Positions 6,300 through 32,209 of a stretch of 47,227 nucleotides of DNA are shown here, in pieces. Made by a program: the position numbers and the translations under genes. This DNA is from Zhongshania marina (GTDB lineage Bacteria; Pseudomonadota; Gammaproteobacteria; Pseudomonadales; Spongiibacteraceae): NCBI RefSeq assembly GCF_002915595.1, contig NZ_PQGG01000044.1:1-47227 (forward strand), in the 5' to 3' direction. Every line of letters begins with the position of its first letter. Within the stretch, counting starts at the first letter, position 1. The notes below the pieces were generated by a model. That model worked only from the letters and a program-made list of their open reading frames with translations, was not told where the DNA came from and did no database searches.

Positions 6300-6309
6300 A
6301 AATGTCATT

Positions 6310-9300: not shown

Positions 9301-9447
9301 GGCGGTCACACTAATTACCGGAAAATCGACCTGTGGAAGCGGCGCCACTGGCAGCAGCCGCCACGCGAGCAAGCCGACCAAAACCAGCGCCAAAGACAAC
9401 AAGCCCGTGGCGACTGGACGGTAAATAAATGGCCGCGAAAGATTCAT
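6310..9447 (-). CDS. mdtC: RND multidrug efflux permease, MdtC/MuxC type
   Basis: This 1045-residue inner-membrane proton antiporter starts with the cytoplasmic helix and first membrane segment (residues 1-30) and has the normal twelve-helix, two-periplasmic-loop RND layout. [15 protein letters not shown] carries the paired acidic residues of TM4 that relay protons. [21 protein letters not shown] near the C-terminus matches the MdtC pattern. Its ATG overlaps the mdtB stop by four bases (ATGA). MdtB and MdtC form a mixed trimer in E. coli; the same is expected here because both paralogues are present. Substrates cannot be read from sequence; relatives export bile salts, novobiocin and similar compounds. 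Confidence 0.92.
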
Positions 9448-12400
9448 CCCCTGCTACTCGGCAAATCAATGTCGTCGTTCAAACCAAGATCTGAATCGGT
9501 GTATTCTGCGCCACTAAACCGATCAAAAAACAAATACACCACCGGCGTGGTAAACAGCGTTAAGACCTGACTCACTAACAAGCCGCCGACCATCACCAGG
9601 CCCAAGGGCTGGCGTAATTCTGCACCGGAGCCGCCGGCTAACATTAGCGGCAAAGCGCCAAACAGGGCCGCCAAGGTCGTCATTAAAATAGGACGGAATC
9701 GTAATAGTGCCGCGCGGTGAATAGCCTCACGTGGACTCATGCCGTGCTTGCGCTGAGCGTCGAGGGCAAAATCCACCATCATGATGCCGTTTTTCTTCAC
9801 CAAACCAATTAGCAACACCACGCCAATGACCGCCACCATATCTAAAGACCGGCCGGTAATAAGCAGTGCTAGTAAGGCCCCAACCGTCGCCGATGGCAGC
9901 GTAGACAAAATCGTAATCGGGTGAATCGTGCTTTCATACAAGACTCCCAGCACCACATACATGGTCGCCACCGCCGCCAGGACCAGCCACAGCGTATTAG
10001 ACAGCGAGGCCCTAAACGCCTCCGCCGCGCCTTGGAAACGGCTTTCTATACCCAGCGGTAAACCAATCTCTAACTCGGTCTCTTGTATTGCGGCCACCGC
10101 CTCGCCAAGCGACGCGCCCTCGGCTAAATTGAATGATAGGGTTGCGGCGGGAAACTGCCCCTGATGATTAATTACCAAGGCCGCCGGCCGTCGCTCTACC
10201 TTCGCCACACTGCTCAGGGGCGCGGGCACACCAGAAGCCGTTGGCACATACAAACTCTTTAGTGCCGCCAAACCGCTGCTCTGCACAGGGTCGACTTCTA
10301 AAACCACGCGGTATTGATTCGACTGGGTAAACAGCGTTGCGATTTGGCGCTGGCCATAAGCATTCTGCAATGTATCTGCGATAGACGATACGCTAACGCC
10401 AAGCCGCGCCGCTGCGTCGCGGTCGATATTGATATACGCCTGCTCGCCCTGCTGCTGCAAGTCGCTGGCAACATCAACAAGCTCTGATCGCTGCTGCAGT
10501 GCTGACATAAGTTTAGGCACCCACTCCGCAAGTTCCGCGGTGCTGGCTGCGGTTAAGGTGAAACGATACTGGGTGCGACTAATTTGATCTTCTATGCTGA
10601 GTTCTTGTACTGGTTGAAACCACGCTTCAATTCCCGGTACATCTTCAGCGCGTTCTCGCAGGCGCTCCATCACCGCAAATACTGATTCGCTGCGTAAATG
10701 ATGGGCGGGCAAATTGATAAACATCCGCCCGCTATTCAGGGTGGTATTGCTGCCATCGACACCAATAAAAGACGACAAACTCGACACGCCCGGATCTTCT
10801 AATAAGGCTGCCGCCAAAGCTTGTTGACGGCGCGACATGGCTGCAAAAGACGAGTTCTGTGGCGCTTCAGTCACGACCTGAATCACGCCGCTGTCTTGTA
10901 CCGGAAAGAAGTCTTTATCGACGGCAAAATATAATAAAACCGTCAGTAAAATCGTCGCCAACATCGCCAGCATCGCGGCGGGCTGACGAGCCAATACCCA
11001 GTCCAGCATCTCACCGTAGCGCGCAATAAATTTATCCATTGCACCCAGTTCTTGATGTTCAGTTTGCAGTGGCTCGCGCAACATACGCGCACACATCATC
11101 GGCGTGAGTGTGAGCGACACCAGTAGTGAAATACCGATAGCCACCGCCAAGGTAACGGCAAACTCGTGGAACATACGGCCAACCACATCCGCCATAAATA
11201 GCAGCGGAATAAGTACGGCGATTAAAGACAGCGTTAAAGATATTAAGGTAAAGCCAATTTCCTTTGCGCCTTTTAAGGCCGCCGCCAATGGGGTTTCGCC
11301 GTTCTCGCGATGACGGGCAATATTTTCTAACATCACAATCGCGTCATCGACCACAAAGCCGGTGGCGATAGTTAAAGCCATTAAACTTAAATTATTAATT
11401 GAAAACTCCGCCAAATACATAAAGGCGAAGGTACCGACCAATGACAAAGGCACGGCGATGCTGGGAATAATAGTGGCGGGCACGCTGCGCAAAAATGCAA
11501 AGGTCACTAATACCACCAAACCGATTGCGAACAGTAATTCTTTTTGCACATCTTTCACTGAGGCGCGAATACTATCCGTGCGATCAGTCAGCACCATGAC
11601 ATCGACAGCAGTAGGCATAGTGGCAGAAAGCTGCGGCAATAGCGCCCGCACGCGGTCAGCAACTTCAATTACGTTGGCGCCAGGTTGTTTTTGAATATTC
11701 AGTAACACCGCCGCCTGAGTGTTTGCCCATGCCGCTAAGAATCTATCCTCCGCGCCGTCACTAATTTTAGCCACATCGCCAAGACGCAGCGGCGCGCCAT
11801 CCTGATAGGCAATAATGAGCTTTTCATAATCTTTGACCGAGCGAATTTGGTCGTTAGCATCTAGCAAGGTCGTGCGATTAGGTCCGTCAAAACTGCCCTT
11901 GGGTTGGTTCACATTGGTGGCAGCAATGACCGAACGAATTTCATTTAAACTCAAACCATAGGCGGCAACCGCAGTAGGATTAACCTGTATACGCAGCGCC
12001 GGACGCTGCCCCCCCGCCAAACTCACCAAACCCACGCCCTGCAACTGCGCCAGCTTTTGCGCCATGCGGGTGTCCACAAGATCGTGAACCTCTGGTAGCG
12101 CTAAGCTTTCGGAGCTGATCGCCAAGGTCATGATCGGCGCATCTGCCGGGTTTACCTTGCGGTAGATTGGCGGCGTTGGTAAATCATTCGGCAATAAACT
12201 ATCCGCCGCATTGAGCGCGGCCTGCACCTCTTGTTCAGCCACACCTAAATCGACTTCTAGCGCAAACTGCAGAGTAATTACCGACGCGCCGCCGGAGCTG
12301 GTAGACGCCATTTGCTTAAGGCCGGGGATTTGCCCCAGTCGTCTTTCCAGCGGTGCGGTAATCGTGCGTGCGGTGACATCTGGGCCTGCGCCTGGGTGAA

Positions 12401-12551
12401 AGGTGAATACCTGAATAATTGGATACTCAACCTGTGGCAAGGCAGACACCGGCAATAGGCGCCATGCCAAAATACCCGCCGCCAATAACGCAAGCATCAG
12501 CAGCGAGGTGGCAACCGGCCGTAAAATAAAGGGGCGTGAGATGCTATTCAT
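9444..12551 (-). CDS. mdtB: RND multidrug efflux permease, MdtB/MuxB type
   Basis: This 1035-residue RND permease is paralogous to the next gene. The N-terminus ([19 protein letters not shown]), [20 protein letters not shown] and the TM4 block [19 protein letters not shown] are characteristic of MdtB. It acts as partner of MdtC in a heterotrimer that takes substrates from the periplasm and inner membrane and passes them through the adaptor to the outer-membrane channel. It begins eight bases after the adaptor stop codon and overlaps mdtC by four bases, so all are one transcript. No frameshift or missing core motif was seen. Confidence 0.92.
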
Positions 12552-12559
12552 CGTCGTGC

Positions 12560-13900
12560 CTAATGATTACGGGGCGCGGAAGTAGCAGCGCTAGCGTCAC
12601 GATTTGGACGTTGACCACCGGCACCATTCGGCCCCTTGCCCGCGCCTTCACGCATCGGCATTCCCTGACGCTGACCGCCTTCACCGCGCTCCATTTTCTT
12701 CCCATCGCGGGGCCGCTGTCCCTGTACTGAGTCAATCCCAGTTGACGGCACATCGCCTTCAACAATCACCTGGCGACCATCGCGCAAACGATCTAAGCCT
12801 TCTAGCACCACCCTATCGCCAGGCTTTAATCCATCAGTAATCGCAACGCGACCACTATCTACCACACCAGTTGTTACCGGACGAATATAGGCCTTACTAT
12901 CTTCCACCACATAAACATAGCTGCCCTGCGAGCCATGCTGTACGGCATCGGCGGGAATCGTTAATACATCGTCAATACTATTTAAACGCAAACGCACATT
13001 CACAAATTGATTTGGGAATAATTCATTGTCGGCGTTTTCAAATACCGCCCGCACTCGCAAGGTCCCCGTGGTGGTATCAATCTGATTATCTAAAGTCGCG
13101 AGTTTGCCGGTGGAAATTACAGTTTGCTCATTGCGACTCAAGGCTTCGACCCGCAACGATTTATCGCCGTTAAAGGCTTTCACTAATGCTGGAACTTCCA
13201 CTTCAGGCACGGTGAACATCACCGCAATAGGTTTGGTTTGAGTAATGGTCACAATACCGTCGCTATCGTTAGCAGCAATTAAATTACCGGCATCTACACG
13301 GCGCAAACCTAAACGGCCAGAGATCGGCGCTTCAATACGCGTCCAAGACAGCTGCAAGCGGGCGTCGTCAACCTGTGCCTGCTGACTTTTATTAGCGCCT
13401 TTTAATTCCCGCACTAGCGCCGCCTGACTATCTAACTGCTGACGGGCAATAGAGTCTTCAGCGTAAAGTCCTTGATACAAATTTAAATCAACTTCCGCAT
13501 TGGCAAGCTGCGCTTGGTTTTGTTGTAACTGACCTAGCGCCTGTTCTAATTGCGCCCGATATGGTGCGGGATCAATCTCTGCCAATAAATCGCCTTTGTT
13601 AACCTCCGCCCCTTCAGTAAAGGTGATTTTATTAAGTACACCGCCTACCCGACTGCGAACAATGACGGTATTTAAGGGTGTAACCGTACCAATAGAGCGA
13701 ACCTGCACATCTAGCCCACCCATTTCAACAGGAACCACCTTCACCGAAGAGGTTTGGCCACCCCAGCCGCGTCGCATCATAGGCTCTGGTGCTGGCGGCG
13801 TGCGGCCCAATAAATACCAAATACCGACAACAAAGAGCAGCAATATCACAACCCAAATGACAGCCTTGCGAGAACTACTTAAACGCGGGGAATTATTCAT
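12560..13900 (-). CDS. mdtA: RND efflux periplasmic adaptor, MdtA/MuxA type
   Basis: This 446-residue membrane-fusion protein is the first gene of the pump operon. An N-terminal anchor helix (about 13-32) precedes the barrel-sandwich lipoyl half ([27 protein letters not shown]). A helical hairpin follows, then the second lipoyl half ([21 protein letters not shown]) and the beta-barrel domain ending in LTIPADAVQ. The last 55 or so residues are a Gly/Arg/Lys-rich low-complexity tail that is longer than the family core needs. No baeSR-type two-component genes adjoin it, so regulation must be encoded elsewhere. It is closest in layout to MdtA of E. coli and MuxA of Pseudomonas. Confidence 0.92.
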
Positions 13901-14180: not shown

Positions 14181-15734
14181 TTAGTATACGTCGCGGCGGT
14201 ATAGGCCGGCGTCGCTTAAGGCATCTACACGACTGTCGCCTAATATGGCGCGAAGTTGCCGGTCTACTGCGCTGGCCATGCCTTCGCGACTTCCGCAAAC
14301 GTAAATTGCTGCCCCTGTCGCCACCCATGTTTTTATTGATTCAGCATTTACCAAAATGGCGTCTTGTACGTAGGCGGGTTGATTGGGATCCCGCGAGAAG
14401 GTCAAATCAATACGCGGCAAATATCCGCTATTTTGCCAATCTGCAATTTCATCTTTAAATATGCGGTCTGCATCTACGCTGCGCTCACCAAACAGCAGCC
14501 AATTGTCATGACGGGCAGCCAATTTACGGGCCTGCAAATGCCCGCGCAATCCGGCAAAGCCCGATCCATTACCAATTAAAATCATTGGTATATTCGACGC
14601 CGGCGCATGAAATAATGGATTGCTGCGCAAGCGCAGCATAACGGTGTCGGAAATTGCGAGGTGCACACCCAGCCAGTTCGACGCTACACCCGGCACGCCA
14701 TCAGTGCACTGCACCCTTACCAGCAAATCAAGACATCCGCTTTGCGGGATCGACGCAATGGAATATTCTCGCTTGGCCAATAAGGGAAATTCATTAAGCC
14801 ACGCAGTAACAGCATTTACGTTATCGCCATCTGGCGCCGCAGTGTTTTTAGCTGTTAAATCTCTGCGAGCAAGTTCTTCGAGTAGACTACGAGATTCACC
14901 CTGTATCGATAACACTAGGCTACCATCGAGTTGATGCTGCGCGGCAAACTCCGCACAACGCCCTGCGCTGTTACGCGGAATGATTTCTGCGATATCCCCC
15001 GCTTGCCACTGATCGTTTTCTTGCAAAGAGAAAAATCGTAAATGAAGCAATGGCTCACCTAAGCTGCCCTGATTAAGCACTTGGCGAGATTCTAAACGCC
15101 AAGCGTGATAGTCAGCCTCGACAAGCGTTGGCATTTGCGAAGGAATATCTGCACCGAAAGTTTGCAGCTGTTGATACCAGCGCTGCATGACACCTACCTT
15201 TGCAGTGTCGTCGTTTCCATCAAGTTCTAAAGGTGCAAAGACCGGCTCAGCACCATGGCCAGACAAACCCGCGTGCAGCTTGTGACCAAAAGCGCAAAAA
15301 TGTTGGTAGGCGCTGTCGCCCAGCGCCAATACCGCAAATTTTAAATGAGAAAACTGCGAAGAATCGCTATTTAGGTAGCGCCTTGCAAAGCGATTGCCAT
15401 TATCCGGTGGCTCACCCTCACCATAGGTGCTGGCAATAAAAAACGCGTGTTTGGTGCTCGCCAAGACCTCGTCATTCACTCGGTCTAGCGGCAGCACCCG
15501 CACCGGCCCAGCAGCCTGTAATGCGCTTGCGCTTTGCTGAGCCAAGCCTAGGGCAACGCCACTTTGGCTGGCATAGGCCACCAGTACGGAGGCCACAGAC
15601 TGGCTTTCTGCATCAACAGGAAATTGCACGCCGCCGCTATTACGGCGGCGAAATTGCCATAGGCAATACACCCACAGCAATGCGTACAAAGTCGACACCG
15701 CCACAACCAGCAGTACTCGCTCCCAAATGGCCAC
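14181..15734 (-). CDS. Membrane-tethered flavodoxin / ferredoxin-NADP reductase-like flavoprotein (sulfite-reductase alpha / CPR type)
   Basis: This 517-residue protein begins with one membrane helix (about 6-27). A flavodoxin-like FMN domain follows (AYASQSGVALGLAQ loop near 53-66, then STYGEGEPPDNG and LALGDSAYQHFC). A FAD-binding barrel carries KREYSIASIPQSG, and a NADPH-binding domain carries GNGSGFAGLRGHLQ and YVCGSREGMA. The order is that of cytochrome P450 reductase and CysJ. It should pass electrons from NADPH through FAD and FMN at the inner face of the membrane. Lying at the end of a TonB/PepSY/DUF2271 cluster, it is more likely a ferric-chelate or quinone-side reductase than an assimilatory sulfite reductase; no cysI is nearby. 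The start is GTG with no clear ribosome-binding site. Confidence 0.85.
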   Translation of the reverse strand: MAIWERVLLVVAVSTLYALLWVYCLWQFRRRNSGGVQFPVDAESQSVASVLVAYASQSGVALGLAQQSASALQAAGPVRVLPLDRVNDEVLASTKHAFFIASTYGEGEPPDNGNRFARRYLNSDSSQFSHLKFAVLALGDSAYQHFCAFGHKLHAGLSGHGAEPVFAPLELDGNDDTAKVGVMQRWYQQLQTFGADIPSQMPTLVEADYHAWRLESRQVLNQGSLGEPLLHLRFFSLQENDQWQAGDIAEIIPRNSAGRCAEFAAQHQLDGSLVLSIQGESRSLLEELARRDLTAKNTAAPDGDNVNAVTAWLNEFPLLAKREYSIASIPQSGCLDLLVRVQCTDGVPGVASNWLGVHLAISDTVMLRLRSNPLFHAPASNIPMILIGNGSGFAGLRGHLQARKLAARHDNWLLFGERSVDADRIFKDEIADWQNSGYLPRIDLTFSRDPNQPAYVQDAILVNAESIKTWVATGAAIYVCGSREGMASAVDRQLRAILGDSRVDALSDAGLYRRDVY

Positions 15735-15758
15735 GATAAATTAACGCGCAATTAAAAC

Positions 15759-16583
15759 TTACTGTGGCAACACTTCCAATGTTGCTGAATAACTACCTTG
15801 CCGTGTTGTCGCCGGCTTCGCGGCCTTATCATCTTGGTATTCAGCTTCTAGCCAGTAACGTCCCGCTGATGGCCACTCAACGCTGACCACGCCTTTTTTA
15901 TCGCTAACGACTTTAATTTCATTAGGACTGTTGCGGTAACGCGAGCCGTCTGGAATAACCGTAACTTCAACACCGACTGCAGGCTTGCCGTCGATCATAA
16001 AACGGAACTGCGCTGTTTCACCGGAGAACAAATCATTGGGGTGAGTAATGGGCTGCATTTCCAAGCCTTCGTTTTGCAATTCAAATACCACTTTACTAGG
16101 CTGACCGGCGGTAACGAAGGTTTCCATGCGACGCGAAGACTGACTTACCTGTAATTTTTTTGCATTTTTAGGTACGGCTTTTTCAAAATCGCCGGGTGCT
16201 GGTGTTTCACCACGGCCAGGCCAAAAACCGCGTTTGCCATCTTCGGTTTCCCAGCGCGCGCGAAGCCCACTGCTGGCACTGAATACTTTATATGTGCCTT
16301 CTTTACTTAGCTCTAAATCAAAACTGCTACGGTATTTACCAGTATGCTGGTTTTGCATTTCTACTTCTTTACCATCTGGGCCAATAGCCTTCATGCCCTT
16401 CAAACGCATAGGAGCGTGGTCGGTGTAAAAAATATCATTAGACACGGCCGCGTCAAAGGTTACCCAGGCATTCTCGCCAGACAATACTGTGGCGGCGGGT
16501 AAAACCCATGCGCGGTGAGCATTAGCCACTAGGGGCAGAGACATAGCTAGTAAAGCAATAAGTGGTAATTTAGTTTTCATCAT
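15759..16583 (-). CDS. DUF4198 family periplasmic protein
   Basis: The protein is about 274 residues with a typical signal peptide ending VANA, so the mature chain would begin HRAWVLP with a histidine first. DUF4198 proteins are beta-rich, carboxypeptidase-regulatory-like periplasmic proteins that often sit beside metal-uptake genes. Here the C-terminal half (KPAVGVEVTVIPDGSRYRN, SAGRYWLEAEYQDD) is the expected Ig-like part. Several ATGs compete at the start (16589, 16583, 16580). A GGGA about six bases before 16583 favours that one or 16580. It lies between the DUF2271 gene and the flavoprotein in the same run. A metal- or chelate-binding role is inference. Confidence 0.82.
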   Translation of the reverse strand: MMKTKLPLIALLAMSLPLVANAHRAWVLPAATVLSGENAWVTFDAAVSNDIFYTDHAPMRLKGMKAIGPDGKEVEMQNQHTGKYRSSFDLELSKEGTYKVFSASSGLRARWETEDGKRGFWPGRGETPAPGDFEKAVPKNAKKLQVSQSSRRMETFVTAGQPSKVVFELQNEGLEMQPITHPNDLFSGETAQFRFMIDGKPAVGVEVTVIPDGSRYRNSPNEIKVVSDKKGVVSVEWPSAGRYWLEAEYQDDKAAKPATTRQGSYSATLEVLPQ

Positions 16584-16646
16584 TTTCATTCCCAATCATG
16601 TTTTGTATACGTGAATACGCAGCGAGCATCTCAATCGAAAAAATAC

Positions 16647-17153
16647 TTACGGCGTAAGCTGTAGGGCAATTTTTCCTAACTCAGTTTTTCCTTGAGCCTC
16701 TAAGAGCTGATTAGATTTAGCCGGCCACTCAAATGGGATTTGCAACAACTCGCGACCACCAACTTCGCGGGCGGCCTCGACATATAATTTGTAACTACCC
16801 GCTGCTAAATTCTTCAGGTTTTTTGTATCTACCGTATGTACACCCGGTTGCTGAGTCGCACCGGTAATACCGTCCACGGGCATGTCTAAACTGCGACCAC
16901 TACGACGCCACCACTGGCGCATATCTTTCAGCCACTGTTCACCTTTCTCACCGCTCTTATCAAGCTGATACCATACGACCAAATTAGTAACGTCGCCGCT
17001 ATCCTTGTTCTGAACCCACATTGCAACATAGGGACGGTGATACTCCGCCACGTCGATGCGCGGCAACTCAACAGAAAGCGTCATGTCTCCCGCCCGTGCG
17101 GCGCTAATACATGCGAAGCCCAGCAAGGTCATCGCCGTCATTTTCTTGATCAT
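16647..17153 (-). CDS. DUF2271 family periplasmic protein with TGAT flavinylation-like motif
   Basis: The mature protein is about 146 residues after a signal peptide (MIKKMTAMTLLGFACISAARA). The start at 17153 is chosen because GGAAGGG sits seven to ten bases upstream and the signal peptide then begins cleanly; a longer open frame reaches 17234. The body shows YHRPYVAMWVQNKDSGDV, VVWYQLD and WLKDMRQWWRRS, which are the DUF2271 hallmarks. MPVDGITGATQQPG follows, with Asp94 to Thr100. The D-x-x-T-G-A-T core resembles the site to which ApbE attaches FMN through a threonine phosphoester in NqrC and RnfG. Its place in a TonB/PepSY/flavoreductase cluster suggests a periplasmic electron carrier, which is inference. 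Confidence 0.85.
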   Translation of the reverse strand: MIKKMTAMTLLGFACISAARAGDMTLSVELPRIDVAEYHRPYVAMWVQNKDSGDVTNLVVWYQLDKSGEKGEQWLKDMRQWWRRSGRSLDMPVDGITGATQQPGVHTVDTKNLKNLAAGSYKLYVEAAREVGGRELLQIPFEWPAKSNQLLEAQGKTELGKIALQLTP

Positions 17154-17223
17154 CAAATTTCCCTTCCTTTGTTTAGGCCTAATTTCAGCGAAATATTTAG
17201 CTAACTTCGCCCCGAGAAGACAG

Positions 17224-17844
17224 TTAATGGACAAATAAAATAATTAATATCAGCGGTATAACTAAGCCCAAGCCAACCATTGGCCAGGTGCTAGGCCGAC
17301 TGCCGGCATGGCGCTGCAATAACAACAGACCGGATACGCAAAACACCACACAGGCAATTGCAAATACATCAATGAACCAGCTCCATGCTGTGCCGGTATC
17401 ACGCCCCTTGTGAAGGTCGTTTAAATACGCAATCCAGCCCCGCGTGGTGCGCTCATATAAAATATCGCCACCGGCTAAATCGATACTCAGCCATGCATCG
17501 CCACCTGGCCTTGGCAGCGCGACATAGACCTCTTCGTCGCTCCACTCGCCCCGCGCTGAGGCAGGAATATAAATACCCAACTCGCGCTCTAACCATGCCC
17601 GCAAGTCTTTACTCAACGAGGCTTTGTCGCTGTCGGGTACAATCACCGCGTCTAACACCGACGGCGGTAATACACTTTCTATAGAGGTCACTACCGGCGT
17701 CGCGGGAATTATCGCAGCGTGATTAAGGGTAATTCCTGTGGCCGCAAACAGCAGCATGCCCACGAGACAAACCGCCGAACTGATCCAATGCCATTGACGC
17801 AGGGAGCCAAGATGCCAGTGCGCAGGAATAATTTTTAGCGCCAT
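17224..17844 (-). CDS. PepSY-associated transmembrane protein
   Basis: This 206-residue inner-membrane protein starts with a short cytoplasmic tail and WHWISSAVCLVGMLLF in TM1 (about 20-40). A periplasmic PepSY-like domain of about 100 residues follows, with YVALPRPGGDAWLSID and GWIAYLNDLHKGRDTG. Two more membrane helices end the chain (about 153-175 and 187-205). PepSY_TM proteins occur with TonB-dependent iron uptake and ferric-siderophore reduction. His19, His42 and His145 flank the membrane segments and could ligate heme, as proposed for membrane electron carriers of this class; that is inference. The gene lies between exbD and the DUF2271 gene on the same strand. Confidence 0.85.
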   Translation of the reverse strand: MALKIIPAHWHLGSLRQWHWISSAVCLVGMLLFAATGITLNHAAIIPATPVVTSIESVLPPSVLDAVIVPDSDKASLSKDLRAWLERELGIYIPASARGEWSDEEVYVALPRPGGDAWLSIDLAGGDILYERTTRGWIAYLNDLHKGRDTGTAWSWFIDVFAIACVVFCVSGLLLLQRHAGSRPSTWPMVGLGLVIPLILIILFVH

Positions 17845-17899
17845 AAATTAGGCTTCCAATACGTCACTCTAATTCCGCAATCGCGAATCATCACTGGGC

Positions 17900-18316
17900 T
17901 TAACTCTCTGGCTCGGTAACAAAGCCGAGTTTTAAAATTCCCGATCGTTGCACTGCCGCCATCACTTTTAATACATGCTCGTAGCTGGCATTGCGATCAC
18001 CGCGAATATGCACCTCCGGCTGCACCGGACTCGCCGCCGCGGCGATTAAACGCTGTTCCAGCGCCTCCATTGTCATTTCAGTTTTATCCCAATGAATTAT
18101 TCCCTCGGCGGTAATCGACAGAGTTACCGCATCAGGTTTGATATCGTTGGGAGTATTGTCAGCGCGGGGCAAATCCACTTTTACCGAGTTGGTTATGACG
18201 GGCACGGTAATAATAAAAATAATCAGCAATACCAACATAACGTCGACCAGCGGCGTCATATTGATCTCGCTCATTACCTCGCTGCTGTCATCGTCTAAGC
18301 CGCCGCCAAATGCCAT
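17900..18316 (-). CDS. exbD: ExbD/TolR family biopolymer transporter
   Basis: This 138-residue protein has one membrane helix (about 24-43). NMTPLVDVMLVLLIIF carries the essential Asp of ExbD, which couples proton flow to TonB. A periplasmic domain follows, with the pattern IHWDKTEMTMEALEQRL and VHIRGDRNASYEHV. It begins one base after the exbB stop codon and is part of the tonB-exbB-exbD run. The acidic LDDDSSEVMSEI N-terminus is usual for this subfamily. Confidence 0.95.
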   Translation of the reverse strand: MAFGGGLDDDSSEVMSEINMTPLVDVMLVLLIIFIITVPVITNSVKVDLPRADNTPNDIKPDAVTLSITAEGIIHWDKTEMTMEALEQRLIAAAASPVQPEVHIRGDRNASYEHVLKVMAAVQRSGILKLGFVTEPES

Positions 18317-18317
18317 G

Positions 18318-19052
18318 TCACACTCCCTCGCGCTTTTGCTGCGCCTTGGCTAAGCTGCTGACAACATCGCCGCTGCGATTTGCCGGCGCCGCGCCAGTAA
18401 TAAGGTAGGCGTGGAGCTGGTGCGCAAAACGATTTAACTTACTGATGATGGCCTTATTGCCTCGGGCCAAGGTGTTGTATGCCAGTACCGCAGGAATGGC
18501 GACCGCCAAACCAAAGGCCGTCATGATTAAAGCCTCACCCACTGGGCCTGCAACTTTATCGATACCTGCTTGGCCAGACACACCAATGTTTACCAAGGCG
18601 TGGTAAATACCCCACACGGTGCCAAACAAGCCTATGAACGGTGCGGTTGAACCAACCGATGCCAACACCGCAAGTCCGCGTTGAAGATTTTCTGAACTTT
18701 CGTCGATTGAGCCCTTCAAGCAGGCGGTGAGCCATTCGGCTAACGGCAAATGCCCGTGCAAATCGGCCTTGTGATTTACATGGTGATCCAAGCCAGACTG
18801 GCCCTCTTCGGCAAGGTGGCGAAAAGGATTGTTTTGCTGATTACCCAGCATATGCAAACCCTCGGCAAAGCTTTGCGCATGCCAAAAATCAACCAAGGCG
18901 CGCACGGGTTTACGCAGGCGATACAAACGCCAAGAGCGAATCACAATGACATACCAAGATGCGATGGACATCGCCAGCAGCATTACCGCCACAACCTTGA
19001 TGACCATATCGCCCTGTGTCCACAGGGCCTCTACGCCATAGGGATTTTCCAT
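18318..19052 (-). CDS. exbB: ExbB/TolQ/MotA family proton channel
   Basis: This 244-residue protein has three predicted membrane helices. SVGSTAPFIGLFGTVWGIYHAL, then GPVGEALIMTAFGLAVAIPAVLAYN, are the conserved ExbB blocks in TM2 and TM3 that form the proton-conducting core. It works with ExbD and TonB to energise outer-membrane receptors. It follows tonB by about 70 bases and runs straight into exbD, forming a complete three-gene motor. Relatedness to TolQ is excluded mainly by the neighbours: tonB is adjacent and no tolA, tolB or pal is present. Confidence 0.95.
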   Translation of the reverse strand: MENPYGVEALWTQGDMVIKVVAVMLLAMSIASWYVIVIRSWRLYRLRKPVRALVDFWHAQSFAEGLHMLGNQQNNPFRHLAEEGQSGLDHHVNHKADLHGHLPLAEWLTACLKGSIDESSENLQRGLAVLASVGSTAPFIGLFGTVWGIYHALVNIGVSGQAGIDKVAGPVGEALIMTAFGLAVAIPAVLAYNTLARGNKAIISKLNRFAHQLHAYLITGAAPANRSGDVVSSLAKAQQKREGV

Positions 19053-19122
19053 AAAACTACATCCTCAAACTTAATATTGCCGACTGCTAACAGCGGCGTA
19101 AAAAAACCTAAATGCCCCACCG

Positions 19123-19860
19123 CTACTGATTCAATGAGAATTCCAGCGGCTGCAAATACCAGTATGGAATCGGCTCATCACCGCGTTTAGCGGGTAAATA
19201 GCGCCAGCGTTTCACGGCCTTCATCGCCGTCTTATCCAATCGCTCAAAACCGCTGGACTGTTTAATTCTCACCTCACCCACGGTGCCGTTCGGCAAAATG
19301 AGTAGTTCTAACACCACAATGCCCTCTTCTTTTAAACGCCGAGAAATACTCGGATACGCGGGTGCCGGATTATTAAGAGGGTTGGCGTCGTGACGCGGCG
19401 GCGTAATCGGCGCCCCCAAGGTCTTGTTGTCATTTTCCGAAACCCGTGCCTGCTTCTGCGCGGGCGGCGGCGGTGCCGGTTGCTCTTCTGCCTGCTCTTC
19501 GCGGCTAATCGCCTTTTCCGATGGTGGCGCCTTAGGTGGCGGCAATTTCGGCTTGGGCTTAGGTTTTGGCAGCGGCTTGGGTTTGGGCTTTGGCTTAGGT
19601 TTAGGTGGCTCCGGCGTTTTTTCTGGCGGCGGCGTTTTTCTCTCACTCGGTAATTGCACTGCCTCGGCCGGTGGCGCGGGAATCAGCACCCCCTGAATAC
19701 TAGGCATTACCACCTGCTTGTGCTCCGGCGATGGGATATACACCACCGCTGCGATAGCACCGCCATGTATGGCGAGCACCAATAAAAGCCCCCACCAAGA
19801 GTCGTATGCCGACTTCACAGTGCGGCTCTCTCGATAATCCAGCCGCCATTTTTCAGACAA
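19123..19860 (-). CDS. tonB: TonB energy transducer
   Basis: This protein of up to 245 residues has one N-terminal membrane anchor (WWGLLLVLAIHGGAIAAVV). A long Pro/Lys-rich spacer follows with repeated KP pairs (about 70-115). The C-terminal TonB domain carries YPSISRRLKEEGIVVLELLI, GTVGEVRIKQSSGFERLDKTA and VKRWRYLPA, where YP and the final WRY block contact receptor TonB boxes. The longest frame starts with TTG at 19860; a GTG at 19818 has a GAGAG sequence upstream and gives a more usual short cytoplasmic tail. It is the first gene of the cluster and lies downstream of a Fur-box-like site. Confidence 0.94.
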   Translation of the reverse strand: MSEKWRLDYRESRTVKSAYDSWWGLLLVLAIHGGAIAAVVYIPSPEHKQVVMPSIQGVLIPAPPAEAVQLPSERKTPPPEKTPEPPKPKPKPKPKPLPKPKPKPKLPPPKAPPSEKAISREEQAEEQPAPPPPAQKQARVSENDNKTLGAPITPPRHDANPLNNPAPAYPSISRRLKEEGIVVLELLILPNGTVGEVRIKQSSGFERLDKTAMKAVKRWRYLPAKRGDEPIPYWYLQPLEFSLNQ

Positions 19861-20093: not shown

Positions 20094-20112
20094 ATTAATG
20101 AGAATGATTATC
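20094..20112 (-). promoter_or_regulatory. Fur-box-like operator of the tonB cluster
   Basis: ATTAATGAGAATGATTATC matches the 19-base Fur consensus at 15 positions by my count. On the minus strand a -35-like TTTACC (20117-20122) and a -10-like TTAATA/TAATAG bracket it with 17-18 base spacing, so iron-bound Fur would cover a leftward promoter. The distance to the tonB start is about 235 bases. Confidence 0.75.
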
Positions 20113-20282
20113 AAAGGTAAAGTGAGAATATATTTAGTTACTATTGCTAGTCAACCAAGATATCGCTAAGTAGTTGCTCGGCAAGGCGAGCGCTTGCAGC
20201 CCAAAAATTCCTGTTTCTGATTCCAAATGGAATCCATTCAATCCCTCGCGCCTTCCGCCTTATTTCCGCCGCCTTAGTTTCA

Positions 20283-20326: not shown

Positions 20327-20467
20327 CGCAATCAAACTGTAAACCTTTCGCCCTAGTCTCTTAGCCACTCATTGGTATTAGAGCCCTGCTCAATACCACC
20401 GCCCACAGCTACAGCCATGCCATACCGACAAAAGGAAATTTCAAATTTCCAGACTAGGAGCCTTCAC

Positions 20468-22054
20468 ATGCGTATAAGAACCGCCATTTTGTCAGGGGTA
20501 TTGCCCATCGCAATTGCGTCCCACGCCGCCGCTGCGGTAATGCCCGCACATCAGACCAGCAACCCCTGGTATACCGACGCCGCCACTAGCACAAACGCTA
20601 AAGCCACAGCGACCACACCCAATAAAGCAAAGAACGTCATCCTCTTTGTAGGTGACGGCATGGGGGTGTCTACGCTAACCGCCGCACGCATCCTGCAAGG
20701 TCAGCAAAAAGGTAATCAAGGCGAGGAAGGTCTTTTAAGCTTTGAAAGCTTCCCTCATACCGCCTTAGTAAAAACCTATAATGTGGACGCGCAAACCCCT
20801 GACTCAGCCGGCACCATGACCGCGATGATGTCTGGAGTGAAAAGTGATGCCGGCGTGCTTGGCGTCTCAGAAAACATCGAACGCGGCGATTGCAGCACGG
20901 TTAGCGGCAATGAATTAATCACCGCCATTGAGCTAGCCGAATTAAAAGGCATGTCGACGGGTATTATTTCTACCGCACGTATCACCCACGCTACCCCCGC
21001 GGCAGCCTATGCAAAATCCGCTGACCGCGACTGGGAAGACGATGGCGACTTGCCAGACGATGCCAAAGCCGCAGGCTGCGAAGACATTGCATCGCAACTA
21101 ATTAATTTTGAACCCAATCTAGAAGCCCGCATTGAAGGTGCAGACGTCGATGGTTTAGACGTTGTGATGGGTGGCGGTCGCCGCAGCTTTTTGCCCAAAG
21201 ATGCTGCCTTTAACAGCGACGACGCGGTAAGTAGTGTTGAGGGCGATCGCACTGACAACCGCGATCTCACCGCGGAATGGAAAGCACGCTATCCAAACGG
21301 TGACTATGTGTTTGATCAAAGTAGTTTTGACGGCGTAAATGCCAACACCGCCACCAAACTATTTGGCCTGTTTAACGAGTCACATATGCAGTACGAGGCT
21401 GACCGTGGCAACGACGTTGCCGGCGAACCATCGCTGACCGAAATGACCACAAAGGCCATCGACATTTTAGACAACAATAGCAAAGGCTATATATTAGTTG
21501 TGGAGTCGGGTCGTATCGATCACGGTCATCACGCCGGTAGCGCTTACAGCGCACTCACCGATGCGATTGAATTGTCTAATGCAGTAAAAGCCGCCGCCGA
21601 CGCCACCAGCGCAGACGACACCTTAATTCTGGTTACCGCCGACCACAGCCATGTATTCACCATTGCCGGTTACCCTAAACGCGGTAATCCGATTCTAGGT
21701 AAGGTGGTTAACGTAGGTGAAACAACGCCAACTACCGCCGCCGATGGCATGCCTTACACCACTGTCGGCTACACCAATGGTCTTGGCTTTCACGATCTTG
21801 GCAACGCCACCGATGGCGACGCGCTGTATTCTGAAGGCATTCAAGCAGGACGAGCGGATCTGGCCAGTGTCGACACGGAATCATCAGGCTTTCACCAAGA
21901 AGCATTAGTACCACTGGATTCTGAAACCCATGCCGGCGAAGATATCAGCCTTCACGCCCGCGGCCCTGGCTCACAATTTGTGCGCGGCGTTGTCGAGCAG
22001 AACCTAGTTTTCCACTTGATCAATCAAGCACTTGATCTGCTGGCCAGCGAATAA
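20468..22054 (+). CDS. Alkaline phosphatase, soluble periplasmic/secreted (animal-type active site)
   Basis: This 528-residue phosphomonoesterase follows a normal signal peptide (cleavage near SHAAAA). The ATG at 20468 is favoured by AGGAG seven bases upstream; the open frame extends to 20372. Metal and nucleophile motifs are FVGDGMG and TPDSAGTMTA, with the catalytic Ser. RITHATPAA has His where E. coli PhoA has Asp153, and GRIDHGHH has His where E. coli has Lys328. This is the His/His form found in mammalian and shrimp enzymes. The Zn-ligand HSH motif is in TADHSHVF, and a late Zn ligand is in ETHAGED. It releases phosphate from organic esters outside the cytoplasm. It is probably PhoB-controlled and cotranscribed with the next gene. 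Confidence 0.95.
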   Translation: MRIRTAILSGVLPIAIASHAAAAVMPAHQTSNPWYTDAATSTNAKATATTPNKAKNVILFVGDGMGVSTLTAARILQGQQKGNQGEEGLLSFESFPHTALVKTYNVDAQTPDSAGTMTAMMSGVKSDAGVLGVSENIERGDCSTVSGNELITAIELAELKGMSTGIISTARITHATPAAAYAKSADRDWEDDGDLPDDAKAAGCEDIASQLINFEPNLEARIEGADVDGLDVVMGGGRRSFLPKDAAFNSDDAVSSVEGDRTDNRDLTAEWKARYPNGDYVFDQSSFDGVNANTATKLFGLFNESHMQYEADRGNDVAGEPSLTEMTTKAIDILDNNSKGYILVVESGRIDHGHHAGSAYSALTDAIELSNAVKAAADATSADDTLILVTADHSHVFTIAGYPKRGNPILGKVVNVGETTPTTAADGMPYTTVGYTNGLGFHDLGNATDGDALYSEGIQAGRADLASVDTESSGFHQEALVPLDSETHAGEDISLHARGPGSQFVRGVVEQNLVFHLINQALDLLASE

Positions 22055-22065
22055 GGAGAGTGACC

Positions 22066-23712
22066 ATGAAATATTTTAAAGTAGCAATTTTAAGCGCGGC
22101 CGTAGCAGGCCTCGCAGCCTGCGGCGGCGACAATGACAAAAAGAGCAGTTCAAACAACAATAGCAGCGCTGCCATTATTGAAAATACCCGCAGCAATGCA
22201 TGGTATAGCGACGCAGAAGCAAAAATAGCCGCCACCACCCAAGCCAACCTCAATCGTGGCGCGGCAAAAAACGTTATTCTTTTTGTCGGTGACGGCATGG
22301 GTATTTCTACCGTGACCGCCGCCCGTATTCTTGCCGGCCAGCTTAAGGGTCAATCGGGCGAAGAAAACAATCTAAGCTTCGATCTATTCCCCTACACCGG
22401 CTTAGCAAAAACCTATAACGTCGATGCGCAAACTCCAGATTCAGCCGGCACCATGACAGCCCTGATATCGGGTGTAAAAACTGACGTTGGCGTTATTGGC
22501 GTGAATGAAAATATTGTTCGCGGCGACTGCACAACCGTTGCAGGCAACGAATTAGTGACCGCCCTTGAACTCGCGGAAATTGCCGGCAAGTCTACCGGCA
22601 TACTGTCTACCGCCCGCATCACCCACGCCACTCCTGCGGCAACCTACGCAAAATCTGCTGATCGCGACTGGGAAGACGATGGCGACATGCCAGACGCAGC
22701 AATAAGCGCTGGCTGTGAAGACATTGCATCGCAGCTCATTAACTTTGAGCCTAATTTAGAAGCGCGAATTAATGGCGTCGATGTAGATGGTATCGAAGTC
22801 GTCATGGGTGGCGGTCGTCGCAGCTTTTTACCTAAAGACGCGACATTTAACAGCCCAGACGCCGTCAGCAGCGTTGAAGGTGATCGCACCGACGGTCGCG
22901 ATCTAACCGCTGAATGGAAAACACGCTACCCCAGCGGCAATTACATTTTTGACCAAACCAGTTTTGACGCCATCGACACCGAAAGCACAAGCAAAGTACT
23001 CGGCCTATTCAATGAATCACATATGCAATACGAAGCCGACCGTGGCAACGACGTTGCCGGCGAACCCTCGCTAAGTGAGATGACAGAAAAAGCGATCAAG
23101 ATCTTAGACAATAACGACAACGGCTATTTCTTGATGGTTGAATCTGGTCGTATTGACCACGCTCACCACGCTGGTAATGCCTACAATGCGCTAAACGACG
23201 CAGTAGAATTATCGGAAGCTGTTGCCAAGGCCGTTGAACTTAGCAATAGCGATGACACGCTCATTATTGTTACCGCCGACCACAGCCATGTTTTCACTAT
23301 TGCTGGCTATCCTAAACGCGGCAACCCCATCCTCGGCAAAGTCGTCGGTATTGGCTCTAACAGCCCATCGCTGGCTGCCGATGGCACACCTTATACTACC
23401 TTGGGCTACACCAACGGTTTAGGCTTCCGCGATCTCGGCAATGAAACCGACGCCGACGAAGCTTACAACCAAGCAATTGACGCTGGCCGCAAAGACCTGT
23501 CGCAAATTGACACCCAAGCGCCAGGCTTCCATCAAGAGGCATTAATTCCTCTCGGTTCGGAAACCCATGCGGGCGAAGACGTTGGCGTTTATGCATCTGG
23601 CCCTAGCGCCGCATTGGTTAGCGGCACTAACGAGCAAAACATGGTCTTCCATGTAATGAATTACGCAGCAGACCTTGTGAACAAAGCCAATAGCAAGCAA
23701 GTGGCCCCTTGA
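22066..23712 (+). CDS. Alkaline phosphatase, lipoprotein paralogue
   Basis: This 548-residue paralogue begins 11 bases after the previous stop. AAGGAG overlaps that stop and sits seven bases before the ATG. The N-terminus ends in lipobox LAAC followed by GGDNDKK, so it should be lipid-anchored; Gly and Asp after the Cys leave inner versus outer membrane sorting unclear. A Ser/Asn-rich spacer of about 15 residues follows. The core is very like the upstream enzyme: VGDGMG, TPDSAGTMTA, RITHATPAA, GRIDHAHH and ETHAGED are all present with the same His/His substitutions. It looks like a tandem duplication whose copies have diverged in location. Confidence 0.95.
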   Translation: MKYFKVAILSAAVAGLAACGGDNDKKSSSNNNSSAAIIENTRSNAWYSDAEAKIAATTQANLNRGAAKNVILFVGDGMGISTVTAARILAGQLKGQSGEENNLSFDLFPYTGLAKTYNVDAQTPDSAGTMTALISGVKTDVGVIGVNENIVRGDCTTVAGNELVTALELAEIAGKSTGILSTARITHATPAATYAKSADRDWEDDGDMPDAAISAGCEDIASQLINFEPNLEARINGVDVDGIEVVMGGGRRSFLPKDATFNSPDAVSSVEGDRTDGRDLTAEWKTRYPSGNYIFDQTSFDAIDTESTSKVLGLFNESHMQYEADRGNDVAGEPSLSEMTEKAIKILDNNDNGYFLMVESGRIDHAHHAGNAYNALNDAVELSEAVAKAVELSNSDDTLIIVTADHSHVFTIAGYPKRGNPILGKVVGIGSNSPSLAADGTPYTTLGYTNGLGFRDLGNETDADEAYNQAIDAGRKDLSQIDTQAPGFHQEALIPLGSETHAGEDVGVYASGPSAALVSGTNEQNMVFHVMNYAADLVNKANSKQVAP

Positions 23713-28865: not shown

Positions 28866-29296
28866 TATTTTTATCCCATTAACTACTTGGAAAGCACATC
28901 CTTGCCAATACTTTGCACATTGCTCCTAGCTTTTGTGCTATTCATGCATACAAAATACGGGACAATATCGTTAAAAACAATCGCTAAACAAGGCGCTTTT
29001 TAGACAAAACCCACATCGCGCGAATTAATAAGCAAACCACCTCCCAACCGCACCAAAGTTGCGCACGGCCTTAGACCTCAACCGCCATATTTACCTCCGA
29101 AATGCAGCACTTGGGTGCCATTCCAATTCGAAAGATCAAATAAAGCAATAATCTAAATACAAACTATTTGTGTTTGATAGTGATTCTCATTAATATACAA
29201 CCCGACTTCAGGCTTTGCCTAAATTTACATCCACTGCCGCAACAAAAGTGGCATACACAATCGGCAGTTCTAGAGACTACTCAGGAGATTTTCAAC
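28866..29296. other. Divergent intergenic region upstream of the siderophore receptor
   Basis: These 431 bases contain no supported gene. The right part holds the Fur-box promoter of the receptor and about 100 bases of leader; the left part must hold the promoter of the crotonase-family gene. Nothing else was recognised. Confidence 0.6.
29168..29196 (+). promoter_or_regulatory. Fur-box-like operator overlapping the receptor promoter
   Basis: GATAGTGATTCTCATTAAT (29176-29194) matches the 19-base Fur consensus at 14 positions by my count. A -35-like TTGTGT (29168-29173) and -10-like TAATAT (29191-29196) stand 17 bases apart around it. This also rules out the longest reading frame of the receptor, which would start inside the promoter. 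Confidence 0.82.
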
Positions 29297-31447
29297 GTGA
29301 CCGACCTACAACAAGCAAACCGACCGCAACGCAAATTACTTGCGCAAGCCATTGGCTTGGCATTAGCCAGCACGGCACTGCCATCACTTGCAGCAGAAGA
29401 AGCGCAGCAGACTTTACCTGCGGTGAAAGTGGAATCTACGGTTATCTCTCCATATAAAGCAGAAAAAGCCTCTTCTCCCCAATACACCCAAAAGCTGGCA
29501 GACACCCCAAAAACCATCACCGTTGTACCTGAGCAAATACTACGTGACCAAGCCGTAACGAGCCTGCGCGATGCACTGCGCAATGTGTCAGGTATTACCA
29601 TGCAGGCGGGTGAAGGCGGCGCAGCAGCCGGCGACAACCTAAGCATTCGCGGCTTTGATGCCACCAACGACCTCTACGTAGACGGTGTTCGCGATATTGG
29701 CGCCTATAGCCGCGACACATTTAACCTTGAGCAATTAGAAGTCACCAAAGGTCCCTCATCTACCGTCAGCGGCCGTGGCTCAGCAGGTGGATCGGTTAAC
29801 TTAGTAAGCAAAACTGCCAAGTTTGAAGATTTTAAACGCGGCACCATCATGGTTGGTAACGAAGACCAATTGCGCGCCACCGCAGACATCAATGCGACAC
29901 TGACTAGCAATTTAGCTGGCCGTATCAACCTTATGACACAAGACAGCGGTGTACCTGGCCGTGACGTGACCGAAAACAAAGGTAGCGGCTTTGCCGGTGC
30001 GCTTAGCTATTTGCTGTCAGATAAAACAACTTTGTCGGGCGGTATTACTTATCTAGACCAAGACAACGTTCCTGACGGCGGTGTTCCCTTACTCACTAAC
30101 GCCAACGGCGAGCGCTACTTAGACGAAAAGACCGCAGAGAATTACTACGGTGTTGAAAATCGTGATTACGACGAAAACGAAATCACCACCTTTAAGTTCG
30201 CCGTTGAGCATAACTTCAGCGACACTTTGAGCCTGCGCAACCAAACATTTATCGGCACTACCGAGACCTCCGCTGCCTTCACTCGCCCCAGCTTTGACTC
30301 AGCGACCGGCGAAGCGCGCCGCGGCGGCGCTAAAGGTCGCGACGAAGATCGTGACATCCTCTCTAACCAGACAAGCTTGCGCAGCGACTTTATCAGTGGC
30401 GGCGTGCAGCACAACCTCGTCACCGGCTTTGATATCACCCAAGAGGAATACATCAACTACGAGCTGCTGTACACCGACGACAATGCACCCAATGTTGACC
30501 TATACAATCCTGTTACCAATGACCCTTACAACGGCTCTATTACCCGTGCGGGTGGAAAGCGCAAAGGGACCTACGACGCACTTTCTTTCTTTGTGAGCGA
30601 CACTCTTACCTTTACACCGCAATGGTTGGTCACTGTCGGTATACGTGTTGAAGATTACGATCAAGATTACACACAGGATTACTCGTCTACCAACCGCGAC
30701 GGCAGCATCACTTCGCCGTACACCTATAAATCTAGCGACACCTTAGTAAGCTGGAACGCCGCCGTTACCTATAAGCCCGTTGAAAACGGCAGCATTTATT
30801 TTGGTATCGGCAATGCACAAACACCGCTGGGCAGCAATTTAACACTGAGTTCCGACCAGCAAAATCTGGACGCGGAAGAAGACCAAATCTTAGAACTAGG
30901 CACCAAGTGGGAGCTGTTCGACGCCAAGGTACTTGCCAACGCAGCGCTATTCCGCTCAGTTAAAACCAACGCAGCAACTAACGACGTCGACAATGACGAC
31001 GCATTGGTGCTCGATGGCGAGCAAGTTGTACAGGGACTGGAGATGGGCATAAACGGCACCATTAACGCTCAGTGGGCTATCATTGCCAACTACACCTATA
31101 CCGATAGCGAAGTCACTGAATCTGGTGACCCGACTGAGGAAGGTGAAGTGATTTTCAATATTCCTGAGCACAGCGCCAGCCTGTGGACGACCTACCAAAT
31201 TGATCGCGCATGGCAAGTTGGTGGCGGCCTGCAATACATCGGTGATTATCAGAATGGCAGCACCACAGAACTCGATGCCACCACCCTGCTTAACGCCTCC
31301 GCCTCGTTCCAAGCGACTGACAATGTGAAGCTACAGCTAAATGCCAACAATTTAACAGACGAAAAATATCTGCTAAAACCACGCGGTAGCCGTGGCGTAC
31401 CGGGCACAGGTAAAAGCTTTACACTCACAGCCAGTCTGGAGTTCTAA
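29297..31447 (+). CDS. TonB-dependent catecholate-type siderophore receptor (Fiu/PiuA-like)
   Basis: This 716-residue outer-membrane barrel starts at GTG 29297, nine bases after AGGAG. A signal peptide ends near SLAAEE. A TonB-box-like stretch follows (LPAVKVESTV). The plug domain has LRDALRNVSGITMQAGEGG, LSIRGFDATNDLYVDGVRD and LEVTKGPSSTVSGRGSAGGSVN, a block order typical of Fiu and PiuA. The barrel ends with SFTLTASLEF and a terminal Phe, the usual assembly signal. It imports ferric catecholate compounds using TonB-ExbBD energy, most likely from the cluster at 14181-19860. A PiuC-like gene follows, as fiu-ybiX does in E. coli. Fur control is visible. Confidence 0.94.
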   Translation: MTDLQQANRPQRKLLAQAIGLALASTALPSLAAEEAQQTLPAVKVESTVISPYKAEKASSPQYTQKLADTPKTITVVPEQILRDQAVTSLRDALRNVSGITMQAGEGGAAAGDNLSIRGFDATNDLYVDGVRDIGAYSRDTFNLEQLEVTKGPSSTVSGRGSAGGSVNLVSKTAKFEDFKRGTIMVGNEDQLRATADINATLTSNLAGRINLMTQDSGVPGRDVTENKGSGFAGALSYLLSDKTTLSGGITYLDQDNVPDGGVPLLTNANGERYLDEKTAENYYGVENRDYDENEITTFKFAVEHNFSDTLSLRNQTFIGTTETSAAFTRPSFDSATGEARRGGAKGRDEDRDILSNQTSLRSDFISGGVQHNLVTGFDITQEEYINYELLYTDDNAPNVDLYNPVTNDPYNGSITRAGGKRKGTYDALSFFVSDTLTFTPQWLVTVGIRVEDYDQDYTQDYSSTNRDGSITSPYTYKSSDTLVSWNAAVTYKPVENGSIYFGIGNAQTPLGSNLTLSSDQQNLDAEEDQILELGTKWELFDAKVLANAALFRSVKTNAATNDVDNDDALVLDGEQVVQGLEMGINGTINAQWAIIANYTYTDSEVTESGDPTEEGEVIFNIPEHSASLWTTYQIDRAWQVGGGLQYIGDYQNGSTTELDATTLLNASASFQATDNVKLQLNANNLTDEKYLLKPRGSRGVPGTGKSFTLTASLEF

Positions 31448-31528: not shown

Positions 31529-32209
31529 ATGCTAGTTAGAATTCCCGCAGTTCTCAGTAAAGCAGAGGTGGCGCACTGCCGCAGGGTGTTGGAAGCTGCT
31601 GAATGGGTAGACGGCAAAGTAACGGCGGGATACCAATCGGCAAAGAGCAAAAACAATATTCAATTGCTAGAAAATTCCGATGCCGCAAACCAGCTTGGCG
31701 ACATTATTTTAGCCGCCCTCGCTAACAATAATTTATTTATGTCAGCCGCCCTGCCGCTAAAAATTTTCCCACCCCTGTTTAATTGCTACCAAGGTGGTCA
31801 CTCCTTTGGGGTACACGTCGACAATGCGATAAGACAGGTAAAGGGTACGGCAGTTAAGGTGCGAACCGATCTGTCGATGACACTGTTTTTTTCAGAACCG
31901 GAAGAGTACGATGGTGGCGAATTAGTTATTGAAGATACCTACGGCACACAAAGCGTCAAGCTAGCAGCGGGAGATATGATTCTATATCCCTCCACCAGTC
32001 TGCACCGTGTTACCCCAGTGACCAGAGGCAGACGCCTCGCCTCATTTTTTTGGTTGCAAAGCATGATCGCCAGCGACGAGAAGCGCAGCTTGTTATACGA
32101 CATGGATATGAGTATTCAGAACCTAAGCCAAGGCAATGAAGACCACCCTGCAATTATTCAACTCACTGGGGTTTATCACAATTTACTGCGGCAATGGGCG
32201 CAAACCTAA
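31529..32209 (+). CDS. piuC: Fe(II)/2-oxoglutarate dioxygenase, PKHD-type (PiuC/YbiX)
   Basis: This 226-residue member of the prolyl 4-hydroxylase-like PKHD family has iron ligands His96 and Asp98 (HVDNA) and His159 (SLHRV). Arg169 is placed to bind 2-oxoglutarate. The N-terminus ([26 protein letters not shown]) and [10 protein letters not shown] match PiuC/YbiX. Homologues sit beside iron-regulated receptors (fiu-ybiX, piuA-piuC), but their substrate is not established. It follows the receptor by about 80 bases with a hairpin between, so it may be transcribed by read-through under Fur control. Confidence 0.94.

Follow-up and report, generated by a model that had tools for sequence, protein, structure and literature searches.

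How iron is taken off imported siderophores in bacteria whose siderophore receptors are many but whose matching ABC importers are few is a question raised in PMC7190382, a report in which DUF4198/DUF2271 pairs of Alteromonas increase under iron limitation. Gene clusters built around PepSY membrane proteins were proposed in 2021 as flavinylated iron-reduction systems (PMC8238504). Here we describe an operon of this kind, headed by tonB-exbB-exbD, in the window, by which we mean the whole analysed stretch of 47,227 nucleotides of Zhongshania marina (contig NZ_PQGG01000044.1). PMC8238504 counts 3220 PepSY clusters, 2833 of them with DUF2271, 1500 with DUF4198 and 231 with PF03544; the last is given there as TonB receptor, but is the TonB C-terminal domain in Pfam. 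A DUF2271 protein of A. ursilacus was flavinylated by ApbE, and flavinylation was lost when Thr was changed to Ala (PMC8238504). In Caulobacter crescentus, the genes CC3059-3063 (CCNA_03155-03159) have the order PepSY-DUF2271-DUF4198-ApbE-CysJ-like (sulfite-reductase flavoprotein). They are induced by low iron, and Fur binds their promoter (electrophoretic mobility shift and lacZ data; PMC3751524); transposon insertions in them reduce fitness in ethylenediaminetetraacetic acid (EDTA; PMC12004947). The first of these genes is called a transporter in PMC3751524 and a PepSY family member in PMC12004947.

The operon in the window comprises seven genes, all on the minus strand, in the transcription order tonB-exbB-exbD-PepSY-DUF2271-DUF4198-diflavin reductase (Table 1). 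The intergenic gaps are 70, 1, 55, 70, 57 and 24 bp, given ATG starts at 17153 for DUF2271 and 16589 for DUF4198; the TTG starts that the open reading frame (ORF) tool gave for these two genes are mechanical, and the ATGs were preferred. All seven products passed Pfam cut-offs (Flavodoxin_1, NAD_binding_1, DUF4198, DUF2271, PepSY_TM_like_2, ExbD, MotA_ExbB and TonB_C). An initial annotation, made from the letters of the window, had reported seven leftward genes with short gaps, a complete TonB motor and an upstream Fur-box-like site, and all three were borne out, the domains being as claimed and TonB, ExbB and ExbD all being present by Pfam. We infer a single transcript for the seven genes. 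The gene order matches that of Caulobacter except for ApbE: the window adds tonB-exbB-exbD in front and has no apbE in the operon. With the clusters described in PMC8238504 it shares PepSY (PF16357), DUF2271 with the [ST]GA[ST] motif and DUF4198, whereas ApbE is not adjacent and the anchored diflavin reductase is a separate protein. Three features of a PepSY-like flavinylated iron-reduction system were thus found, namely a PF16357 protein, a [ST]GA[ST] substrate in the cluster and ApbE in the genome.

Table 1. Features of the window referred to in the text, with positions counted from its first nucleotide.
Feature	Position	Strand	Remarks
CysJ-like diflavin reductase	14181..15734	-	N-terminal hydrophobic anchor
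DUF4198 protein	15759..16589	-	mature N-terminus probably at His, codon 16517-16515
DUF2271 protein	16647..17153	-	ApbE flavinylation motif DGITGAT; start shifted to ATG 17153
PepSY_TM_like_2 membrane protein	17224..17844	-	three long helices; candidate haem ligands H19, H42, H145, H179, H206
exbD	17900..18316	-	Pfam ExbD
exbB	18318..19052	-	MotA_ExbB
tonB	19123..19860	-	TonB_C domain; start codon uncertain
Fur-box-like site	20094..20112	-	15/19 vs GATAATGATAATCATTATC; upstream of tonB
Second promoter-like site	20114-20086	-	9/12 matches; overlaps Fur-like site
Promoter-like hexamers TTGACT-16-TATATT	20127..20154	-	10/12 matches
Fiu-like TonB-dependent siderophore receptor	29168..31447	+	possible partner; TonB-siderophor model above, Fiu model below curated cut-off
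Fur-like site by receptor	29176-29194		15/19; at listed start of Fiu-like receptor
PiuC/YbiX-type Fe(II)-dependent dioxygenase	31529..32209	+	adjoins Fiu-like receptor

The mechanism best supported, and in our judgement a likely one, is reductive release of iron with electrons from nicotinamide adenine dinucleotide phosphate (NADPH) passed over haem and covalent flavin mononucleotide (FMN). The site would be the periplasmic face of the inner membrane, where iron would be released from ferric chelates. TonB-ExbB-ExbD would energise at least one receptor for ferric chelates whose gene lies outside the operon; the Fiu-like receptor of the window may be one of these. The membrane-anchored CysJ-like reductase would draw electrons from cytosolic NADPH via flavin adenine dinucleotide (FAD) and FMN, and the three-helix PepSY protein would move them through the membrane by way of His-ligated haem. 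DUF2271, with covalent FMN attached by an unlinked ApbE, would accept the electrons in the periplasm and reduce Fe(III). DUF4198 would bind a metal ion, which may be the iron set free, and Fe(II) would enter by a non-Feo importer, for which an NRAMP and a ZIP protein are candidates. The electron path and its direction, the haem content and all substrates are put forward on this basis as predictions. NADPH-driven ferric-chelate reduction at the inner membrane had already been suggested in the initial annotation, and it remains the best reading given the precedent, the cofactor residues, the Fur-like sites and the protein fusions; the flavinylation motif of DUF2271, and with it the probable covalent flavin, had been missed, as had the His at the mature N-terminus of DUF4198 and the lack of apbE.

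Residues were counted on stop-to-stop frames from the window, L035-L065 and L067-L146 (L numbers denote loci), for every locus in which the gene was present; among these rows, four genomes are represented twice (L043/L070, L044/L069, L049/L143 and L051/L074). The Thr of the flavinylation motif of DUF2271 is present in 102/102 rows and the Asp in 100/102, with Ala changed to Pro in 11. Because of this motif, DUF2271 is probably a covalent-FMN carrier; a sequence search of the PDB with DUF2271 returned no match. The genome has two ApbE copies, of which one lies beside DUF3570 and one, on our reading of the sequences, follows nqr-like genes. A linked apbE was rejected for the window operon, as neither copy lies there, and flavinylation of DUF2271 would therefore be in trans. 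ApbE was found in 29 of the 30 other DUF2271 genomes in a sample of the taxonomic order. Another flavinylation cluster in the same genome (L034, contig 17, 7835-9997) holds a DUF3570 gene with an SGAT motif, ApbE and flanking large CxxCH proteins.

The reductase resembles CysJ and cytochrome P450 reductase over the FMN and NADPH domains. FAD_binding_1 matched only below the Pfam cut-off, while the FAD motif residues are kept. Of 93 rows, 82-93 conserve the residues of the flavin and NADPH motifs and 5 or 6 have gaps there; in 86/93 the flavodoxin domain is preceded by a hydrophobic anchor (78/85 split-type proteins plus 8 fused PepSY proteins). The PepSY protein (206 aa) matches PF16357 at 264 bits and the PepSY_TM Pfam model at 37 bits. 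Its structure model, with a predicted local distance difference test score (pLDDT) of 88.9, comprises three long helices plus a periplasmic domain. Judged by helix ends and charge in this model, we read H19 and H179 as facing the cytosol and H42, H145 and H206 as facing the periplasm. His is conserved in 102/103 rows at H19, 93/103 at H42 (10 Asn), 103/103 at H145, 99/103 at H206 and 78/103 at H179, a pattern in keeping with a single haem close to the periplasm. The loci with Asn in place of H42 are L084, L097, L105, L111, L113 and L115 (Methylophilus, Achromobacter, Bordetella) and four more. Fusions of PepSY_TM, flavodoxin and NAD-binding domains are encoded next to DUF2271 elsewhere in the order (two were scanned with Pfam, at 734 and 755 aa) and tie the reductase and the PepSY protein together. 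Long CysJ-like proteins stand at the DUF2271 matches of L057-L064, and the two of them that were scanned are such fusions.

In DUF4198, a His directly follows the predicted signal peptide in 101/103 rows (the cleavage site was placed by eye), and another conserved His stands at position 185 of the ORF (278 aa). The DUF4198 model (pLDDT 91.7) matched in Foldseek the structure of Zcp (9mhk; E 1.1e-14) and of nickel-bound IsDUF4198 (9gcb; E 1.4e-10), the Zcp structures matched being native or with Cu, Zn or Co. On the mature N-terminal His and these metal-bound matches, DUF4198 is probably a periplasmic metal-ion carrier and is proposed as a candidate for this role. The Zcp chains of PDB entries 9mhi-9mho are labelled phosphoribosylglycinamide formyltransferase yet match DUF4198, so that the molecule name looks wrong.

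Relatives were taken as the best 80 of 585 confirmed loci, with at most ~9 kb fetched each way, so that the frequencies given for these named relatives hold for close relatives only. In the fetched stretches, DUF2271 was found in 79, DUF4198 in 80, a CysJ-like gene in 69, ApbE in 50 (it was not seen in 30), a receptor in 51, a PiuC-type gene in 28, ExbB in 12 and TonB in 9. The order PepSY-DUF2271-DUF4198 holds in 77/80, more often than chance would give. In two of the exceptions, L097 and L118, the sorting was disturbed by long frames that overlap; the third, L099, is a contig of 3.5 kb with no DUF2271 match. The alphaproteobacterial loci L087, L092, L093, L094, L102, L116, L126, L132, L136 and L138 are PepSY-DUF2271-DUF4198-ApbE clusters with no CysJ-like gene in the stretch.

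Fur-like sites were scored against the consensus GATAATGATAATCATTATC as printed in PMC9426570. The site upstream of tonB is the joint best in the window, tied with the one at the Fiu-like receptor, and was equalled in 1/60 shuffles of the upstream region (p 0.033). Its identical letters occur upstream of tonB in the same-genus genome L035 and in L067, a Zhongshania metagenome-assembled genome that has the entire seven-gene run and a PepSY protein 85% identical to the window's. The scan across loci covered the window, L035-L054 and L067-L146, with loci lacking PepSY or having less than 300 bp upstream dropped; 100 loci were tested with 60 shuffles each. The mean best score was 13.0 vs 10.7 in shuffles, and 61/100 loci had a site at p<=0.05, as did 5/6 tonB-headed loci. 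On the 15/19 site, the operon is predicted to be repressed by Fur. Promoter-like sites in the region were not enriched over shuffles (7 vs a mean of 7.4).

The part played by the TonB head is a separate matter. A contiguous tonB-exbB-exbD head was found in 4/80 named relatives (Zhongshania L067, Rhodoferax L106, Solimonas L130 and L144), as well as in the window and L035. The genes of L144 and L106 were borne out by Pfam, 10/10 each, and L144 holds the single run receptor-PiuC-TonB-ExbB-ExbD-PepSY-DUF2271-DUF4198-ApbE-CysJ. A tree of 94 loci was made by a quick method; it omits not only the order-sample copies of the four genomes represented twice but also L052, L053, L055 and L056 and any locus lacking one of the three genes. 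On it, the head requires three changes, as many as the well-supported branches enforce, and a single gain with two losses could account for them. With NCBIfam, a cut-off was passed by the TonB C-terminal subfamily domain alone, and ExbB and ExbD matched tolQ and tolR best, below cut-off. TonB lies within ~9 kb in 9/80 named loci vs a naive expectation of 2.9, a modest excess; such expectations are built on assumed copy numbers and an assumed genome size and take no account of shared ancestry. The initial annotation had named a random distribution of these genes relative to tonB-exbBD as a refuter, and this excess neither establishes nor excludes it. Its phrase of an energised reduction machine merges two steps, as nothing seen ties TonB-ExbBD to driving reduction; most simply, TonB-ExbBD powers outer-membrane import.

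It is an even bet that the tonB-exbBD head and the PepSY operon are mere neighbours under one iron-regulated promoter, with TonB serving many receptors. This opposes only the idea of a dedicated motor and leaves iron reduction as it stands. The rarity of the contiguous head agrees with it, as do the 8 TonB_C matches (7 over cut-off) and 55 matches to one receptor query in the genome, and a receptor gene stands instead or in addition in those 51 named loci. Against it, the same tonB-headed order recurs in three separate lineages, albeit perhaps by one gain and two losses, and the window's ExbB is 45-59% identical to the ExbBs of the tonB clusters in L106, L123, L130, L135 and L144 vs <=39% to other nearby ExbBs, some over short stretches and in a species-unbalanced set. 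That TonB-ExbBD is specifically dedicated to the reductive pathway is doubtful. A wider proposal, which we regard as possible though rather unlikely, is that a dedicated TonB motor, a Fiu/CciT-type receptor, a PiuC/CciO-type dioxygenase and the PepSY-DUF2271-DUF4198-CysJ chain form one route from outer-membrane capture to periplasmic reduction. Such a route would correspond to the single gene run of Solimonas and to the tonB-headed operons of Zhongshania and Rhodoferax.

A PiuC-type gene is near 28/80 named loci vs a naive 0.3-0.7, and usually adjoins a receptor. Across the order sample, PiuC-type genes were found in 12/31 DUF2271 genomes vs 21/163 others (Fisher p 0.0013, kinship uncorrected). 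In the same-genus genome G123, a PiuC-type gene lies ~15 kb from DUF2271. When a counterpart was sought for the receptor that precedes PepSY in relatives, the best match in the window's own genome was on contig C24, at 42-45% identity in two pieces; on our reading it looks to sit behind a FecR-type gene. This PiuC-type linkage points to possible partners of the reductase, and to what the CciT-CciO and PiuA-PiuC pairs may feed.

Several observations weigh against iron reduction by this chain. A Fur-like site at p<=0.05 was absent from 39/100 loci, the tonB-headed L106 among them. The operon is without apbE, unlike that of Caulobacter and 50/80 named relatives, and DUF2271 is patchy, occurring in 31/194 genomes of the order and 2/7 of the genus. 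A CysJ-like gene is absent from 11/80 named loci, none of them a short contig, and 10 of these 11 have ApbE. A second haem site in the PepSY protein is unsure, as H179 is not His in 25/103 rows. The PepSY model had no Foldseek match in the PDB at E<=0.001, and FoxB was absent among the 50 matches listed; a PDB sequence search with PepSY gave one weak match of no clear meaning, and a profile search none convincing. In the 99.99% complete genome, FeoB_C had no match, so that Fe(II) import must go by another carrier. FeoB was thus rejected as the importer: FeoB_N had 10 matches (7 over cut-off), which we read as other GTPases, the one at 33172 being YlqF. NRAMP had one match and ZIP one in two pieces. 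Lastly, the characterised DUF4198 protein, from Ideonella, binds nickel best, with a Kd of 18 nM (PMC12537917), and the Zcp structures hold Zn, Cu or Co.

These metals are the starting point for supposing that the operon serves copper, nickel or zinc, with the PepSY chain reducing Cu(II) or another ion and DUF4198 as its carrier. CrpH, a PepSY_TM protein of Bordetella, has been linked to copper and respiration (PMC13038864), and the window also holds a COX3-like gene (41353-41925), at a distance of ~21 kb from the operon. We nevertheless think this improbable, given the Fur-like sites, the receptor and PiuC-type genes in named loci and, for the Caulobacter homologue, control by Fur and loss of fitness in EDTA (PMC3751524, PMC12004947), although the EDTA effect alone is indecisive because EDTA binds other metals too. 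An electron chain for another task, such as repair of oxidised periplasmic proteins, is suggested by the MsrQ-like membrane haem proteins, PepSY-like in structure, of flavinylated systems (PMC11334425) and by the many acceptors that flavinylated carriers serve, yet it is very improbable, since Pfam finds no methionine-sulfoxide reductase among the seven genes and the relatives share the iron context just named.

Two adjacent alkaline phosphatase genes (20372-23712), divergent from the tonB operon, are an apparent tandem duplication. The region 3' of the operon (4860-13900) holds an efflux set of a membrane-fusion protein, AcrB-type pump genes and an outer-membrane channel; of the pump genes, the one at 6310-9447 was assigned by Pfam and the one at 9444-12551 is similar by eye. 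The ORF at 178-1725 looks like an IS66-type transposase.

The joint mechanism, called poorly described in the initial annotation, had in fact been proposed already in 2021 (PMC8238504), and the idea that the system of the window is undescribed was rejected in view of that report and of Caulobacter CC3059-3063. FoxB, HiuB and other PepSY_TM ferrisiderophore reductases have His at the membrane ends and reduce iron in the periplasm (PMC13001220, PMC13038864), and SO_1188 of Shewanella oneidensis is a PepSY TM inner-membrane protein with a Fur motif (PMC12442407). By comparison with FoxB and HiuB, the window has a 206-aa three-helix PepSY_TM_like_2 protein with a separate flavin carrier and reductase. 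PiuB of Pseudomonas aeruginosa, which we take to be a PepSY-reductase fusion, is encoded in the piu locus of that species. This locus (piuA-piuB, piuC-piuE) places a receptor, PiuC and PiuB (annotated as an oxidoreductase) under Fur-type sites, and the accessible part of PMC9426570 names no DUF2271/DUF4198 or tonB-exbBD there. Linkage of receptor, PiuC and oxidoreductase is as such not new, given the piu locus. The Fiu-like receptor and PiuC-type gene of the window, comparable to the CciT-CciO, Fiu-YbiX and PiuA-PiuC pairs, lie ~9 kb from tonB, whereas in Caulobacter CciT-CciO (CCNA_00027-28) and the PepSY locus (CCNA_03155-59) have distant locus numbers. For a tonB-exbBD head on a PepSY operon, no description was found in the literature searched, from which subscription journals were mostly absent; the 231 clusters with TonB-domain genes were counted in PMC8238504. 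If the one-route proposal were true, the system could supply the inner-membrane step of CciT-CciO, here without FeoB, and if DUF4198 carries iron here, an iron role would be added to a family so far tied to nickel, zinc, copper and cobalt. The PepSY-DUF2271-DUF4198 operon type offers a testable route for taking iron off imported siderophores. Its core is already described in Caulobacter and in the 2021 clusters, and what is added here, besides the unlinked apbE and the missing FeoB_C match, are the counts of the tonB-exbBD head and the linkage to PiuC-type genes.

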